Shown piece by piece: positions 14,117 to 18,997 of a stretch of 33,104 nt of DNA (the first letter of the stretch is position 1; every line of letters begins with the position of its first letter). The stretch lies in NCBI GenBank assembly GCA_937923575.1, contig CALDUL010000032.1, forward strand, positions 1 to 33,104. Direction: 5' to 3'. The notes beneath the pieces were generated by a model. It made no database searches, had not been told where the DNA came from, and saw nothing but the letters and a program-made list of their open reading frames with translations. The DNA is from an uncultured Algimonas sp. GTDB lineage: Bacteria; Pseudomonadota; Alphaproteobacteria; Caulobacterales; Maricaulaceae. The translations under genes and the position numbers were made by a program.

Positions 14117-14995
14117 ATGCGTTCCCTTCTCGTTTTATCCGCCGCCGCGTTGGCACTCTCTGCCTGTTCGGGCGAACAAGCCGACACGGCTGTCGCCGAT
14201 GCGGAAGCCGCCGTCGACCGCGTTGCCGAGGCCGCCGCGCCGATCTTCACCGCAGGCGCAGAGCCGGCCTTCGTGGAAGACGCGAATGCCTGCACCACCA
14301 TGGGGGCTCAGACGCCGCGCGACATCAGCTTCAAGGCAGGCCTGAACACGGATGACAGCCCATTGGCGGGCGACGCGTCCGGCATGAACCTCTGTAACAT
14401 CCACTTTCACGCCCAGGCCGAGCACAAGGGCCCTGGCTTTTCCATGTATGCCGGACCCGCCCCGGACGGCGGCTACCGCTGCAACGGCACCAACGACCTG
14501 ACGGCGGCCGAGCGCGCGCCCTATGACACCAAGCATGTCGAGGGCGTCGATGTCGGTGACACGATCGAGGTCCACTGGGTCCACACGACTTGCGACATTG
14601 AACCGGGAGAAGGTCTCGGCTCCTGCCTCTCCGACACGTGCGAAAACCCGCGCCTGCGGGTCGAAACGCAGGTCTTCCTCGTGGTCAATGACCGCGGCGC
14701 CATGGACTTCACTAAGATGGACTACATGCCCAAATCGGCCGGAATGCACCAGCCGGGCATGATCCCGACAGGTACAGGCACGCCTGTCGTCTTCCGCGGC
14801 TCCACCACTGGGCCGAGCTATACGGACAACAAGTGCTCACCGCTCAACGTGACATGGTCGGTGCGCCCGCAATGCGCCAAGATCGACATCGCGACGCTCG
14901 ACGCCTGGGCCGAGGACAATGTCTTTAACGAAGATGAGGCCCACGGCGTGCGCACGCTAGTCCGTGACCCGCGTCTGATCTCGCCAATTCGCTAG
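14117..14995 (+). CDS. Delta-class carbonic anhydrase-like lipoprotein
   Basis: This 292-residue protein starts at ATG 14117, with TTGGAG upstream. A lipoprotein signal ends at Cys17 (LALSAC), followed by an Ala/Glu helix and then one globular domain. NLCNIHFHAQAEHKGPGFSMYAG at residues 91-113 holds His96, His98 and His103, and EVHWVHTTC adds His153 and His156. The HxH followed by AEH closely matches the metal-binding region I recall from delta-class carbonic anhydrases of marine algae, which have bacterial relatives. Several cysteines (59, 93, 122, 159, 170, 175) suggest disulfides, as expected outside the cytoplasm. The inferred role is interconversion of CO2 and bicarbonate in the periplasm, possibly for pH or carbon handling under stress. 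The enzymatic activity itself is not shown by sequence. Confidence 0.72.
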   Translation: MRSLLVLSAAALALSACSGEQADTAVADAEAAVDRVAEAAAPIFTAGAEPAFVEDANACTTMGAQTPRDISFKAGLNTDDSPLAGDASGMNLCNIHFHAQAEHKGPGFSMYAGPAPDGGYRCNGTNDLTAAERAPYDTKHVEGVDVGDTIEVHWVHTTCDIEPGEGLGSCLSDTCENPRLRVETQVFLVVNDRGAMDFTKMDYMPKSAGMHQPGMIPTGTGTPVVFRGSTTGPSYTDNKCSPLNVTWSVRPQCAKIDIATLDAWAEDNVFNEDEAHGVRTLVRDPRLISPIR

Positions 14996-15061: not shown

Positions 15062-15619
15062 CTATTGCGTGACCTTGGTGATCGACACGCTCGCCAGATC
15101 CATGCCCTTGCGCTCGCCCGCCTTGCCGGGCCAAATCGAGATCAGATCGGCATTGGGTTCGGCCGCCACGACAGGCGGGGTGAAGCGGTAGGTAAAGTCC
15201 TGCCAGTCCGCACCGAGCGTAAAGCGCTGCCACTCGCTCGCTGCACCTTCCAGCGGGAAATAGGCACTCTCGAACACGTCCAGCGGGTCATTGCGCGCGG
15301 CACGAGCGCGCAGCGTGATCTCGATCGTCTCTCCCGCAAAGCTGCGCTCCTGCGTCGGGCCGAGACTGGCGAATATGCCGATCGAACCCGGCCCCTGATC
15401 GAACCCGGTGAAGGCCGACAGCACGACGTAGCCGCCTTCGTCCGCGCGGTAGTCCATCTCCGTGCCGGGACTGACTTGTAGGGCATTCAGCATGTCGCCC
15501 GCGAGCTCCCAGCGGTCGACCTCGCCGACGATCGTCCGCCCGCCCGGCGCGAGCGCCAAGGCGATAATCCCGGCGAAGACGAGAAGGGCAAGCGGGTAGA
15601 AAAAACGGTCCTTGAGCAC
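15062..15619 (-). CDS. Membrane-anchored protein of unknown function
   Basis: This 185-residue protein is not recognised. One hydrophobic helix at residues 9-26 (PLALLVFAGIIALALAPG) anchors the N-terminus. The remainder looks like a single extracytoplasmic beta-sandwich (YVVLSAFTGFDQGPGSIGIFASLGP, SFAGETIEITLRARAARNDP, ADWQDFTYRFTPP, DLISIWPGKAGERKGMDLASVSI). This is reminiscent of carbohydrate-binding or jelly-roll modules, with a buried-tryptophan pattern. No catalytic residues stand out. It is transcribed alone towards the carbonic anhydrase-like gene. Confidence 0.75.
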   Translation of the reverse strand: MLKDRFFYPLALLVFAGIIALALAPGGRTIVGEVDRWELAGDMLNALQVSPGTEMDYRADEGGYVVLSAFTGFDQGPGSIGIFASLGPTQERSFAGETIEITLRARAARNDPLDVFESAYFPLEGAASEWQRFTLGADWQDFTYRFTPPVVAAEPNADLISIWPGKAGERKGMDLASVSITKVTQ

Positions 15620-15698: not shown

Positions 15699-16166
15699 AT
15701 GAAATATCTGATCATCCCTTTCGTCGCGCTCGCCTTGGCGAGCCCTGCCTATGCCCACCCGGACGAGCCGGAGGTCAATGTCAAACCCAAGGTCGAGAGC
15801 AAGGCAGCGACCAAGACATTCTCCTGGGACGGGGAAGAGTTGCAGGAGGCCGCTCGTGAGCTGGAGAAGGCCCTTCAGGACACCGAAGTCATCTCCGAGT
15901 TCGCCGACATGTTCGCGGCCTTCGCATCCAGCGTCGAGGTCAAGCGCGACGACGACGGCGCGACGCTGATGTTCGACGGTGATGAGCTGATGACCATCGA
16001 GCGGGAGACGTCCCGCGACAGCGAGGACAAGCTTTCCATTAGTGGTTTGGGCAAGAACCTAAGCCTGCAGCGCGAGACCGTTGTGGTCGACGGGCAGAGC
16101 AAGACGCGCATCGTCATCGAGATGGACGGCGCCGATGATGTCGAGATCGAGCTAGATCAGGAATAA
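15699..16166 (+). CDS. Secreted acidic protein of unknown function
   Basis: This 155-residue protein starts at ATG 15699, with GGAG upstream; the frame is open to 15612, but the later start gives a clean signal peptide ending SPAYA-H. The mature part is highly acidic (WDGEELQEAARELEKALQDTEVISEFADMF, VEVKRDDDGATLMFDGDELMTIE, EMDGADDVEIELDQE). It looks like a helical segment followed by a small beta domain. No known motif is seen. Its last 15 bp overlap the 3' end of the convergent Hsp70-like gene. Confidence 0.78.
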   Translation: MKYLIIPFVALALASPAYAHPDEPEVNVKPKVESKAATKTFSWDGEELQEAARELEKALQDTEVISEFADMFAAFASSVEVKRDDDGATLMFDGDELMTIERETSRDSEDKLSISGLGKNLSLQRETVVVDGQSKTRIVIEMDGADDVEIELDQE

Positions 16167-18125
16167 CACGGCGCGTTCGTCGGCCCGCTCCAGCAGCGCG
16201 CGGCCGAGCATGCCCGACAGGTCTTCGCCAAAGCGCGAGGCCGCTTGGTCGTCCCACGCGGCGTGGACGGCTTTGACCATGTCGGGGCGCTGCTTGGCGG
16301 TAGCTTGGTCGATGCGCTTGTCCGTCAGCACATGACGCGCGAGCACGGGCACATTGGCCGATTTGAACCGCCCGGATAACGCCTTGCGCCCATAGAGATA
16401 GCCGCCCCCCGTCACCACGCCGCCGATGATCAGCCCGATCGGGTTCATCAGCAGCGGCGCGAACAGATTGGCATGGGCGAGAAGGGCGGACACGGTGATC
16501 GCCGCCAAGGTTGTGCCGAGCAGGGCTGTGTCGGTTTCCAGCTGGGCGATGTTGGGCGCAGACAGGCTGAGGCCTTCCAAGTGCTGCGAGACGTGAGAGC
16601 TATCGTCCAAACTCAACACCATCGCGGGCAGGCCGTGCTCGCGGCAGAGCGGATCGGTGATCGTTTCGATGTCGCGTTGCAGCCCGGCGAACCAGCTGTC
16701 GATAACAGGCTTGAGGCGGGCCTGCGCAGCGTCCGACCGCAGCCAGTCGGCAGTGCGCTGCATCAGATCGACTTCGACATCGGATAGCGAGCGCGTGTCG
16801 CCGGAACGCCAGGCACGGAAAGCAGGGCGGATGCAGTCTTCGGCCAGACCGTCAACCAGCGCCGGCGCGAGCGTGTCGCCGAGGCGTTTGGCGGCTTGCC
16901 CAGCCAGTTTCGTCACGTCGCCGTCCGGTCCCATCAGTGAACCGACCTCGCGCTTGAAGCTCTCATGCAGGAACTCGAACCGGCCCAGCCAGGCCAAGCC
17001 GCGCGCGATGGCAAATTCCGGCTCCGCGCCGCGGATGACACGCGCGTCGGGGAAGGCGGCCTGAGTCGCGGGCAGGACCAGCGGCAAACGCGACGCGCCG
17101 CCTGTCAGTAACACAGTATCGGGTGCGCGTCCGCCCAACTGCTCGATCGTTTCGCGCAGTGCGTAATCATAGGCGCCCTCCCAGCTATAGCCGTGAAGCG
17201 ACGGGAGCGGTTTGGCGAGGATCGCATCGGCGTCGGCTTTATCCATGCGGATCTCGAATAGGATGGATTTGCCGCCGCCAGCACCTCCAGGGCCGGGTAG
17301 GCGGCGGATCATCTCGACGGGTTTGTCCTCGCCGGTGAAATAGGCCTCTTTTGCCTCGCGGCACCAGAACTCCAGGATAGGGCGGTAGGAGGGATGCGCA
17401 GTGAGCAGCGCGTCGATCGCCTCGCGATGCGGTTGGCGGGCGAGGTTCACGGCGAGGATTTCATTGTCCAGCAGGCCCGAGCCCAGCACATTGTGCCCGA
17501 CATCATCTGCGGCCAGATCGCGGCAATAGGTAAAGTCTGTGGTGGAGCTGCCAATGTCCACGATCAGCACCGACGCCCGCGCGTCATCCATCGACAGATA
17601 GCCCTGCTCCAGCGCCGTCATCAGCGCCGCGCGCGACTCGGACACGATGCGCGCGTTGGTCAGCCCAGCAGCGTTGAACAGCCTCAAATAGTCGGCGCGC
17701 ACGTCGTCATCCCAGCCGGACGGGCAGCCGATGACGAAGCGGCTCTCGCCCGGTCCGCGCAGGCTGCCATCGTCCGCCAGGCCCTCCACCAGCGTCCGCG
17801 TAAACAGGGTCAGCGGCTCGGCGACGTCAGCCGCATCCAGCTCGGGCGACTTGAACTTCGCCCAGATCTTGGCGTCTGATAGTGACAGCGCTTCCGCGCC
17901 GATGCGCACGCCATCTCGGTCTTTTGCCACGGCTGTGATCAGGCTGCGCACACCGCGATATTCGAGGATTTCCGGCTCGGCATGGCCTTGCGCGAAGGCG
18001 CGAGTCAGCGCCGTTTCGCCGTGGCCGAGGTCGAAGCCGACGAACTCGATGTCCTTGCGGGTCTTGGGACCGGTCTTGGGGCCGGTCTTGGGGCCGGTCT
18101 TGGGGCTCGTCTTGGGAGAACTCAT
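16152..18125 (-). CDS. Hsp70-like ATPase with atypical C-terminus and membrane segments
   Basis: A 657-residue protein. After a repeated SPKT/GPKT leader (residues 3-22) comes an actin-like ATPase domain: phosphate-1 VGFDLGHGET (29-38), FVIGCPSGWDDDVRADYLRLFNAAGL (about 130-155), SESRAALMTAL, phosphate-2 VLIVDIGSSTTDFTY (186-200) and the adenosine motif TVLLTGGASRLPLV (337-350). DnaK's substrate-binding beta domain and EEVD-type tail are not visible. Instead a helical region (about 385-530) leads to a hydrophobic stretch at about 533-582 (LLGTTLAAITVSALLAHA ... IGLIIGGVVTGGGYLYG), probably two membrane helices. ATG 18125 overlaps the TGA of the upstream partner gene (ATGA). A membrane-docked chaperone or remodeller is inferred; clients are unknown. 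Confidence 0.82.
   Translation of the reverse strand: MSSPKTSPKTGPKTGPKTGPKTRKDIEFVGFDLGHGETALTRAFAQGHAEPEILEYRGVRSLITAVAKDRDGVRIGAEALSLSDAKIWAKFKSPELDAADVAEPLTLFTRTLVEGLADDGSLRGPGESRFVIGCPSGWDDDVRADYLRLFNAAGLTNARIVSESRAALMTALEQGYLSMDDARASVLIVDIGSSTTDFTYCRDLAADDVGHNVLGSGLLDNEILAVNLARQPHREAIDALLTAHPSYRPILEFWCREAKEAYFTGEDKPVEMIRRLPGPGGAGGGKSILFEIRMDKADADAILAKPLPSLHGYSWEGAYDYALRETIEQLGGRAPDTVLLTGGASRLPLVLPATQAAFPDARVIRGAEPEFAIARGLAWLGRFEFLHESFKREVGSLMGPDGDVTKLAGQAAKRLGDTLAPALVDGLAEDCIRPAFRAWRSGDTRSLSDVEVDLMQRTADWLRSDAAQARLKPVIDSWFAGLQRDIETITDPLCREHGLPAMVLSLDDSSHVSQHLEGLSLSAPNIAQLETDTALLGTTLAAITVSALLAHANLFAPLLMNPIGLIIGGVVTGGGYLYGRKALSGRFKSANVPVLARHVLTDKRIDQATAKQRPDMVKAVHAAWDDQAASRFGEDLSGMLGRALLERADERAVLFLI
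18061..18119. repeat. 12-bp tandem repeat coding for the SPKT/GPKT leader
   Basis: About 4.9 copies of the 12-bp unit GTCTTGGGRCCG, with slight variation, lie at the 5' end of the Hsp70-like gene (minus-strand coding). They encode a Lys/Thr/Pro/Gly repeat before the ATPase domain. Because the unit is a multiple of three, copy-number change would keep the frame. Confidence 0.85.
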
Positions 18126-18997
18126 TTGCGTACCCACACAGTTCCGCGGCGCACAACTCGGCCATCCTCTGTCACCAGCGCGGGTGCGGCGGTCTCCAGC
18201 TTCGGACCCTCGCCGATGGCGGGCAGGCGGTCGAACCATTCGGCGCGTGCCTTGGAATAGTCCACGAGCGTGAGCCCCGCGCCCTCGATCAGGCTCGGCA
18301 GCTCCCGGCGCGACAGCTCCAGCGCGAACGCGCCGTCGCCGCTGCGGCCTGCCTCGATCAGGCTTTGCAGCATGGCGGTCAGCCGGCCATCGTCGCGCCA
18401 ATGGGCTTCGGACGCGGGCTGAGCGAGGCGTAGCAGGATGTGATCCGCCGTCTTCATGGCGTCGCTGACCTGGTTGATCAGACCGGCGCGGTCCAAACGG
18501 ACAACCGCCGTCGCGCGTTGCATCCGGCCGTTGTCGCTGCGCAGGGCCTTGGGCCGCGGCAGGAACGGCAGGCGCAGGCGAACATTGGTCGCGGCGTGCA
18601 GCCCGGCCAAGGCGACCGCGCCCCAGAATGCGAGTCCCACGCCCTGCAACAGTCCCGCGGCGCCAAACAAACCCGCGCCGGCGTAGAACAACCCGTCGCG
18701 CGCGGTGATGGTAAAGTCGTTTTTCACCGCGACTTCGTCCCAGATGATGTCCGCATGGCTCGCACGGTCGATGAGGCCCGTGCCCGATTTGACGATCTCC
18801 ACCAGCCATTGCCCAGCGCGTTGTAGCTGCGGGTCGTCGGTGGAGCGGGCATATCGCGCAGCGGTTCTGTCCAGCGTCCGGCGCACCGCACCCACGGCCT
18901 CGGCCGGGGTATCGGACGCCGACAGGCTCAGCTGCTGCACTTCCTGGGCAAAGTGCTGGGACAGCGAAAGGGCGGGGAGGTTGGGCGTATCGCTCAC
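18122..18997 (-). CDS. Membrane protein partner of the Hsp70-like gene, GrpE-like C-terminus
   Basis: I do not know a named family for this 291-residue protein. It begins with a helical, probably coiled region (1-75), then a hydrophobic stretch at about 103-135 (LFYAGAGLFGAAGLLQGVGLAFWGAVALAGL), probably a membrane hairpin. A second helical region with long amphipathic stretches (155-240) follows. The last 55 residues (SLIEGAGLTLVDYSKARAEWFDRLP ... PALVTEDGRVVRRGTVWVRK) resemble the beta-wing of GrpE, which in GrpE contacts the Hsp70 ATPase domain and promotes ADP release. It lies directly before, and overlaps, the Hsp70-like gene, so a dedicated exchange-factor role is an attractive inference. 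No signal peptide is seen. Confidence 0.72.
   Translation of the reverse strand: MSDTPNLPALSLSQHFAQEVQQLSLSASDTPAEAVGAVRRTLDRTAARYARSTDDPQLQRAGQWLVEIVKSGTGLIDRASHADIIWDEVAVKNDFTITARDGLFYAGAGLFGAAGLLQGVGLAFWGAVALAGLHAATNVRLRLPFLPRPKALRSDNGRMQRATAVVRLDRAGLINQVSDAMKTADHILLRLAQPASEAHWRDDGRLTAMLQSLIEAGRSGDGAFALELSRRELPSLIEGAGLTLVDYSKARAEWFDRLPAIGEGPKLETAAPALVTEDGRVVRRGTVWVRK

Follow-up and report, generated by a model that had tools for sequence, protein, structure and literature searches.

A contig of an uncultured Algimonas sp. (CALDUL010000032.1, positions 1 to 33,104; this whole stretch of 33,104 nucleotides is referred to as the window) carries two overlapping genes, one for an Hsp70-like ATPase and one for a smaller partner protein (Table 1). 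The pair can be read as a two-gene module in which a membrane-docked ATPase of the Hsp70 type works with a membrane protein as its obligate partner, a reading that has, in our judgement, an even chance of being right. At the level of sequence, the domain anatomy, the close coupling of the genes and their perfect co-occurrence in the main family are established. The cassette is real and conserved, and it is seemingly undescribed in the sources searched. No description of the pair was found in the literature searched, whose coverage left out most subscription journals, and this is consistent with the initial annotation of the window, which had called the pair possibly undescribed.

Co-occurrence and coupling of the two genes

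Each gene was searched separately in 137 genomes of the family (the main family). The Hsp70-like gene was present in 51 of them and the partner in the same 51. The two genome sets are identical beyond chance, though the figure is inflated by shared descent, and 8 of the 19 genera carry the pair. A gene-neighbourhood survey had been suggested in the initial annotation, and in this family set the two genes co-occur, adjacent and on the same strand, in all 51 loci. The spacing between the partner stop and the nearest Hsp70-like start was scored in 47 of the 51 loci; it is within 20 bp in 44 of these and -4 in 25, with a bias to small gaps that comes from taking the nearest start. In the window, both genes lie on the minus strand where the initial annotation had put them, and the ATGA that they share, noted there too, is at 18122-18125. 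An open reading frame of 885 residues ending at 18809 is just the frame of the Hsp70-like gene running on into that of the partner.

The absence of a J-protein nearby had been remarked upon as well. A search for the J-domain (PF00226) gave six matches in the own genome, one of them below the cut-off, and none on the window's contig, so this remark holds. The genome has its own DnaK and a J-domain gene on contig C75 and its GrpE on contig C95.

The Hsp70-like protein

The retention of the ATPase motifs, claimed at the outset, is borne out by the aligned family. The nucleotide-binding domain motifs of Hsp70 (phosphate-1, connect-1, phosphate-2 and adenosine) are present. Phosphate-1, the KFK-type lysine, ESRAA and GGASR are kept in 29/29 sequences, the phosphate-2 motif in 27/29 and GCPSGW in 24/29. 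Pfam HSP70 is matched by all 24 aligned members (alignment A1, the window copy counted), with 23.1 bits for the window copy against a cut-off of 20.6. In profile comparisons by hhalign, the family aligned with a DnaK-type profile over 332 columns (E 4.3e-13), and the alignment ended at residue 381, the point where the ATPase domain of DnaK ends. A search of PDB sequences with the whole protein returned weak Hsp70 matches alone (best E 0.035).

Actin-like proteins share part of this signal. The ATPase could be a non-chaperone scaffold at the membrane which polymerises or switches like FtsA, PilM and MamK, with the partner as its anchor or regulator. Such a scaffold would be in line with the secondary matches, as MreB is matched by Pfam in 19/24 members (E 0.1 or better) and the PRTRC_D and PilM-like models are matched too, and with the fact that a substrate-binding domain was not detected. 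The match to the DnaK-type profile is nevertheless stronger than that to the MreB profile (E 5.7e-6, 267 columns) and spans the nucleotide-binding domain with its subdomain IIB. The two profiles were of unequal size (22 DnaK-type and 4 MreB sequences), and the DnaK-type set, picked by pattern, takes in other Hsp70 types. On balance, an actin-like scaffold seems unlikely.

The C-terminal region differs from that of canonical Hsp70 proteins. The DVLLLD-type interdomain linker was found in 0/29 Hsp70-like sequences, the C-terminal profile gave no significant match to the linker and substrate-binding part of DnaK (3/50 shuffles equalled it), and no PDB sequence matched the region at E 1. It consists of helices throughout in a low-confidence AlphaFold model (mean pLDDT, the predicted local distance difference test, of 36.3, from an alignment of two sequences). 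All 24 Hsp70-like proteins and all 21 main-lineage partners have a hydropathy peak, taken as 19 residues with a mean of 1.3 or more, in the hairpin region; the former show two peaks in 16 cases and a single one in 8, the latter a single one in 20 cases and two in 1. From their hydropathy and length, the stretches in both proteins would be membrane hairpins. The initial annotation had seen no substrate-binding domain and had placed probable membrane helices at the end of the Hsp70-like protein and a membrane hairpin in the partner; the missing domain and the hydrophobic, hairpin-like stretches are upheld, with a probable membrane location.

The partner protein and its partial likeness to GrpE

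The window partner matched no family in Pfam, NCBIfam or PADLOC and therefore looks unnamed. Only weak Pfam matches were obtained with 21 aligned partners, e.g., DUF3000 with 6 members (0.00028 at best) and DUF1993 with 5 (0.0043 at best), and Pfam GrpE (PF01025) is not among the families that they matched at E 1. PDB sequences gave no meaningful match, the matches to repeat proteins being judged spurious. The best-conserved blocks over 51 sequences are residues 61-75, 181-195 and 211-225.

A derivation from GrpE would make the pair a true Hsp70/exchange-factor machine, with the partner as its membrane-fixed nucleotide exchange factor. The likeness was assessed by hhalign, with shuffles and a small set of decoys (32 neighbour families and 5 other profiles) as controls. 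Residues 205-291 of the main-lineage partners match the C-terminal region of GrpE at E 1.4e-4 to 3e-4, with probabilities of 39-56% over all comparisons. Against 18 GrpE sequences, the match has an E of 2e-4 and a probability of 47%, and 0/200 shuffles equal it. With 51 partners, these values are 1.4e-4, 52% and 0/60. A larger GrpE set, which holds 45 of 54 loci as nine were missed by the selection pattern, gave an E of 3.1e-4. No decoy equals the match (0/32 and 0/37), but the margin is narrow, with a score of 24.8 against 20.2 and 22.9 for the best decoys, the latter being a decoy with GrpE.

Helix, strand and wing are colinear in the partner and GrpE. The match is carried by residues ~226-247, the last helix and first strand, and segment 222-250 is the strongest (E 1.1e-5, probability 82%). 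The wing alone (241-291) is borderline, as 1/60 shuffles equal it; for the N-terminal 100 residues and for 150-240 the counts are 4/60 and 1/60. Against the reading as exchange factor, the whole partner gave only P 0.0041 and a probability of 8.2%. The last 55 residues had initially been said to resemble the beta-wing of GrpE. What remains of this is a significant match of the 205-291 region in the main lineage, whereas the wing by itself is borderline and the two other lineages described below add little. An AlphaFold model of the partner from two sequences had a mean pLDDT of 43.8 and stayed below 50 in the C-terminal region, too poor to bear on a GrpE-like fold. Homology of the partner to GrpE is thus possible but not established, the profile match being significant in only the main lineage of the three.

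Distribution and related lineages

Outside the main family, divergent copies were found in one further genus and on one plasmid. In the order sample, 25/299 genomes match the protein of a second lineage; 19 belong to the main family and 6 to one genus of another family. In these 6 genomes the gene order is the same and the neighbours differ, and the upstream partner (256-267 residues) has a hydrophobic stretch, with a hydropathy peak in 6/6 (two peaks in 4). The second-lineage partner is colinear with the main partner family (hhalign P 0.0033, probability 9.6%), and 2/200 shuffles equal the real score when the C-terminal parts are compared. A search with the window protein found no match in two genomes of this genus. 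The class sample (385 genomes) and the phylum sample (398 genomes) gave a match in the own genome only; up to 3, 4 and 6 candidates per genome were scored in the class, order and phylum samples, respectively. Samples of this kind miss relatives, as is shown by a further copy in Calothrix.

This copy was the one relative found among 72,556 plasmid records and lies on a conjugative plasmid of Calothrix brevissima NIES-22, flanked by integrase genes on both sides. Its Hsp70-like protein is 33% identical to that of the window (E 2e-72), and profile comparison identifies the gene upstream as a homologue of the partner gene (E 2.7e-9, 232 columns). In this partner gene (L200:8009-8902), the conserved C-terminal end sits in another frame; the out-of-frame piece matches the partner profile at E 2.3e-9, and 0/200 shuffles equal it. 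The gene is either a frame-shifted copy, the result of a sequencing error or a case of unusual frame change. Residues 151-250 of the Calothrix partner showed no significant match to the second lineage (E 0.02-0.035).

The plasmid copy, its integrase genes and the patchy spread over the order would fit a mobile defence or conflict module, i.e., a plasmid-borne two-component immune or addiction-like system. Published conflict systems offer a precedent, with an HSP70 without peptide-binding domain beside HSP70 and GrpE (PMC7159879). PADLOC, on the other hand, gave LeoBC alone, and weakly (E 0.015), no known effector domain is shown by Pfam, and the window flanks hold ordinary metabolic and envelope genes. 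A defence role is considered very unlikely. The pair was unmatched in phage records and viral contigs when a phage origin was looked for.

Proposed mode of action and points against it

As a membrane-docked ATPase with its partner, the pair could work as follows. The hairpin of each protein would be embedded in the cytoplasmic membrane and leave both ends in the cytoplasm. The partner may use its C-terminal domain to bind the ATPase domain close to lobe IIB, in a GrpE-like manner, and to set the nucleotide state. Instead of binding peptides, the protein would then use its ATP cycle to change the shape of the membrane-embedded helical domain, and the pair might, at a guess, serve to remodel membrane proteins or to control their quality. 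If the pair works in this way, an Hsp70 motor could do without a peptide-binding domain and act through the movement of a membrane-embedded one, and the known roles of Hsp70 would be broadened. Moreover, the strictly co-inherited partner would offer a clean two-protein system for asking whether exchange-type regulation of an Hsp70 ATPase can be membrane-integral. A stronger version appears improbable to us, namely an autonomous, J-protein-independent machine in which an Hsp70 motor lacking the substrate-binding domain drives a membrane-embedded helical domain, is clocked by a GrpE-derived, membrane-integral partner and has moved on plasmids between Alphaproteobacteria and Cyanobacteria.

Several points weigh against a membrane-docked ATPase with an obligate partner. 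The complex, the membrane insertion and the ATPase activity of the pair are predictions from sequence. The patchy distribution over the order (25/299) means that the module is dispensable for many of its members. Position and layout are the main ties between the second-lineage partner and the main one, the sequence link being modest. Compared as single sequences, the Calothrix and window partners gave a BLASTP E of 5.1, and tblastn with the window partner found no match in the plasmid records. The GrpE likeness also gains little outside the main lineage. The second-lineage partner gave P 0.2 over its whole length, and 6/200, 3/100 and 6/100 shuffles equalled the match of its C-terminal region. 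The Calothrix wing piece was equalled by 2/200 and 11/200 shuffles, its helix part was not significant, and residues 151-250 had no significant match to GrpE (E 0.02-0.035). Pooling the lineages lowers the partner-GrpE score to 20.7. The GrpE signature, scored with a PROSITE-type pattern, is found in 0/51 partners and 0/6 second-lineage partners versus 37/45 GrpE. Finally, the aligned sequences have DLGH in phosphate loop 1, and DnaK has DLGT; with H-G or H-A instead of the T-T of DnaK, hydrolysis could be weak or lost altogether.

The cleft of the ATPase domain belongs to the same side of the argument. Its positions were read by the register of the DnaK-type profile alignment, and most positions of the salt bridges K55-E267 and R56-E264, which close the cleft of DnaK, are not conserved. 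The K55 position (residue 80) is L, V or I in 24/24 members and never basic. The R56 position (residue 81) is N, S or T in 23/24 and basic in the second lineage only (R in 1/24 of alignment A1 and 3/8 of alignment A9). In A1, the E264 position (254) holds W or Y, and 14/24 members have E at the E267 position (257). The length of the IIB hairpin is 25-33 residues in the 24 members of A1 (25 in 17) and 25-32 in the 8 of A9, compared with 27 in the genome's own DnaK and ~17 and ~22 in two proteins which we take to be HscA. The pair thus has a hairpin about as long as that of a GrpE-dependent DnaK, where GrpE contacts the hairpin 276-302 (PMC10825016). HscA is described as lacking the hairpin residues 290-295 of DnaK and the cleft salt bridges, with a fast intrinsic ADP release, and presumably works without GrpE (PMC8215388). 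By this example, the loss of most cleft latch positions predicts a fast ADP release without any factor, which argues against the need for one. Hairpin length and lost cleft bridges point in opposite ways, and a GrpE-derived exchange factor is rather doubtful on the whole. The initial annotation, which saw in the pair a self-contained membrane Hsp70/exchange-factor machine, was right about the two-gene unit and the ATPase domain, and the two genes do co-occur in other genomes; the likeness to GrpE is partial and the exchange activity unproven.

Gene layout and neighbourhood

The features of the pair are listed in Table 1. A Hellea sp. metagenome-assembled genome is a near relative, with a partner that is 95% identical; a scan of genome contigs with the partner alone returned one locus. 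The PKTG-type repeat was seen in the window's Hsp70-like protein and in none of its 23 aligned relatives.

Table 1. Position of the two genes and of their domains and segments in the window
Feature	Position	Strand	Remarks
Hsp70-like ATPase gene	16152..18125	-	657 aa, ATG start, stop included; Pfam HSP70 match
Partner gene	18122..18997	-	291 aa, GTG start; upstream of the Hsp70-like gene
Nucleotide-binding domain, Hsp70 type, with subdomain IIB	16974..18050	-	residues ~26-384; hhalign to DnaK-type profile and motifs
Subdomain IIB beta-hairpin region	17244..17336	-	residues 264-294; counterpart of the GrpE-contacted DnaK segment
C-terminal helical region	16155..16973	-	residues 385-657; replaces linker and substrate-binding domain
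Hydrophobic hairpin-like stretch, Hsp70-like protein	16410..16526	-	residues 534-572; hydropathy peaks 1.68 and 1.84
Hydrophobic hairpin-like stretch, partner	18593..18691	-	residues 103-135, limits by eye; peak 113-131 (1.64)
Partner C-terminal region, weak GrpE likeness	18125..18322	-	residues 226-291; strongest ~226-247
PKTG-type repeat, N-terminus of Hsp70-like protein	18060..18113	-	residues 5-22; from alignment A1

In the main family, the pair is often found near envelope and sugar-nucleotide genes, with neighbours that presumably encode GalU, GlmS and an epimerase, as named by eye from the sequences without a family search. These neighbours are not kept in the second lineage, and the unit therefore comprises the two genes only. 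Neighbourhoods were compared in 21 regions, a comparison from which the window's own partner was left out, being masked by the 885-residue frame. The protein encoded at 15062-15619 (-) has 185 residues, begins with a hydrophobic segment and is matched by neither Pfam nor NCBIfam; a gene of this type lies near the pair in 14/16 main-lineage loci. The gene at 15699-16166 (+) is convergent to the Hsp70-like gene and has a small overlap with the 3' end of the latter; its product is small and, judged by eye, probably has a signal peptide, and 9 members of its cluster occur in the 21 regions. At 14117-14995 (+), a delta-type carbonic anhydrase is encoded (PF10563, E 2.2e-70). Such enzymes are best known from marine algae, and the present one occurs in an alphaproteobacterium.

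Comparison with known systems

The pair shares with DnaK and GrpE the Hsp70 nucleotide-binding domain with its IIB hairpin and a small partner whose C-terminus is weakly GrpE-like. It differs from them in that it has no linker, no detected substrate-binding domain and no GrpE signature, and in that most latch positions are lost. Furthermore, both of its proteins carry hydrophobic hairpins, and the genome has DnaK, J-domain genes and GrpE separately.

Among the best NCBIfam matches of the Hsp70-like protein are two further Hsp70-like families, PRTRC system protein D and PRK11678, the second of which we take to be YegD. PRTRC protein D and YegD are Hsp70-type ATPases without a substrate domain, as in the pair. 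The scores, in contrast, are far under the cut-offs (33.6 versus 214.8 bits for PRTRC_D and 19.5 versus 331 bits for PRK11678).

Pairs of DUF2760 (PF10816) and Hsp70 genes are alike in layout, with a small protein whose N-terminal part is hydrophobic (by eye) and whose gene adjoins an Hsp70 gene. DUF2760 is found in 11/150 phylum genomes, and an Hsp70-like open reading frame, recognised by pattern, lies directly downstream in 4/11 loci, with a one-base overlap in 2; L132:1243-1875 and the following gene are an example. As a relative of the partner, DUF2760 was rejected for want of profile likeness, since 11/100 shuffles equalled the match to the main lineage and 79/100 that to the second. The C-terminal part of DUF2760 itself scores 16.2 against the GrpE wing (100 shuffles: mean 11.4, maximum 16.9).

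HscC with its tail-anchored partners DjlB and DjlC is another specialised Hsp70, thought to act at the membrane and provided with a dedicated membrane partner (PMC8215388). HscC differs from the Hsp70-like protein in that it retains both linker and substrate-binding domain and has J-proteins as partners (PMC8215388). The HPD motif of J-proteins was found in 0/51 main partners and 0/6 second-lineage partners. The GAP1-N2 conflict systems combine an HSP70 without peptide-binding domain with HSP70 and GrpE in one cluster (PMC7159879). They also include GTPase, FNIII/DnaJ or TPR genes (PMC7159879), whereas here the two genes alone are constant across lineages.

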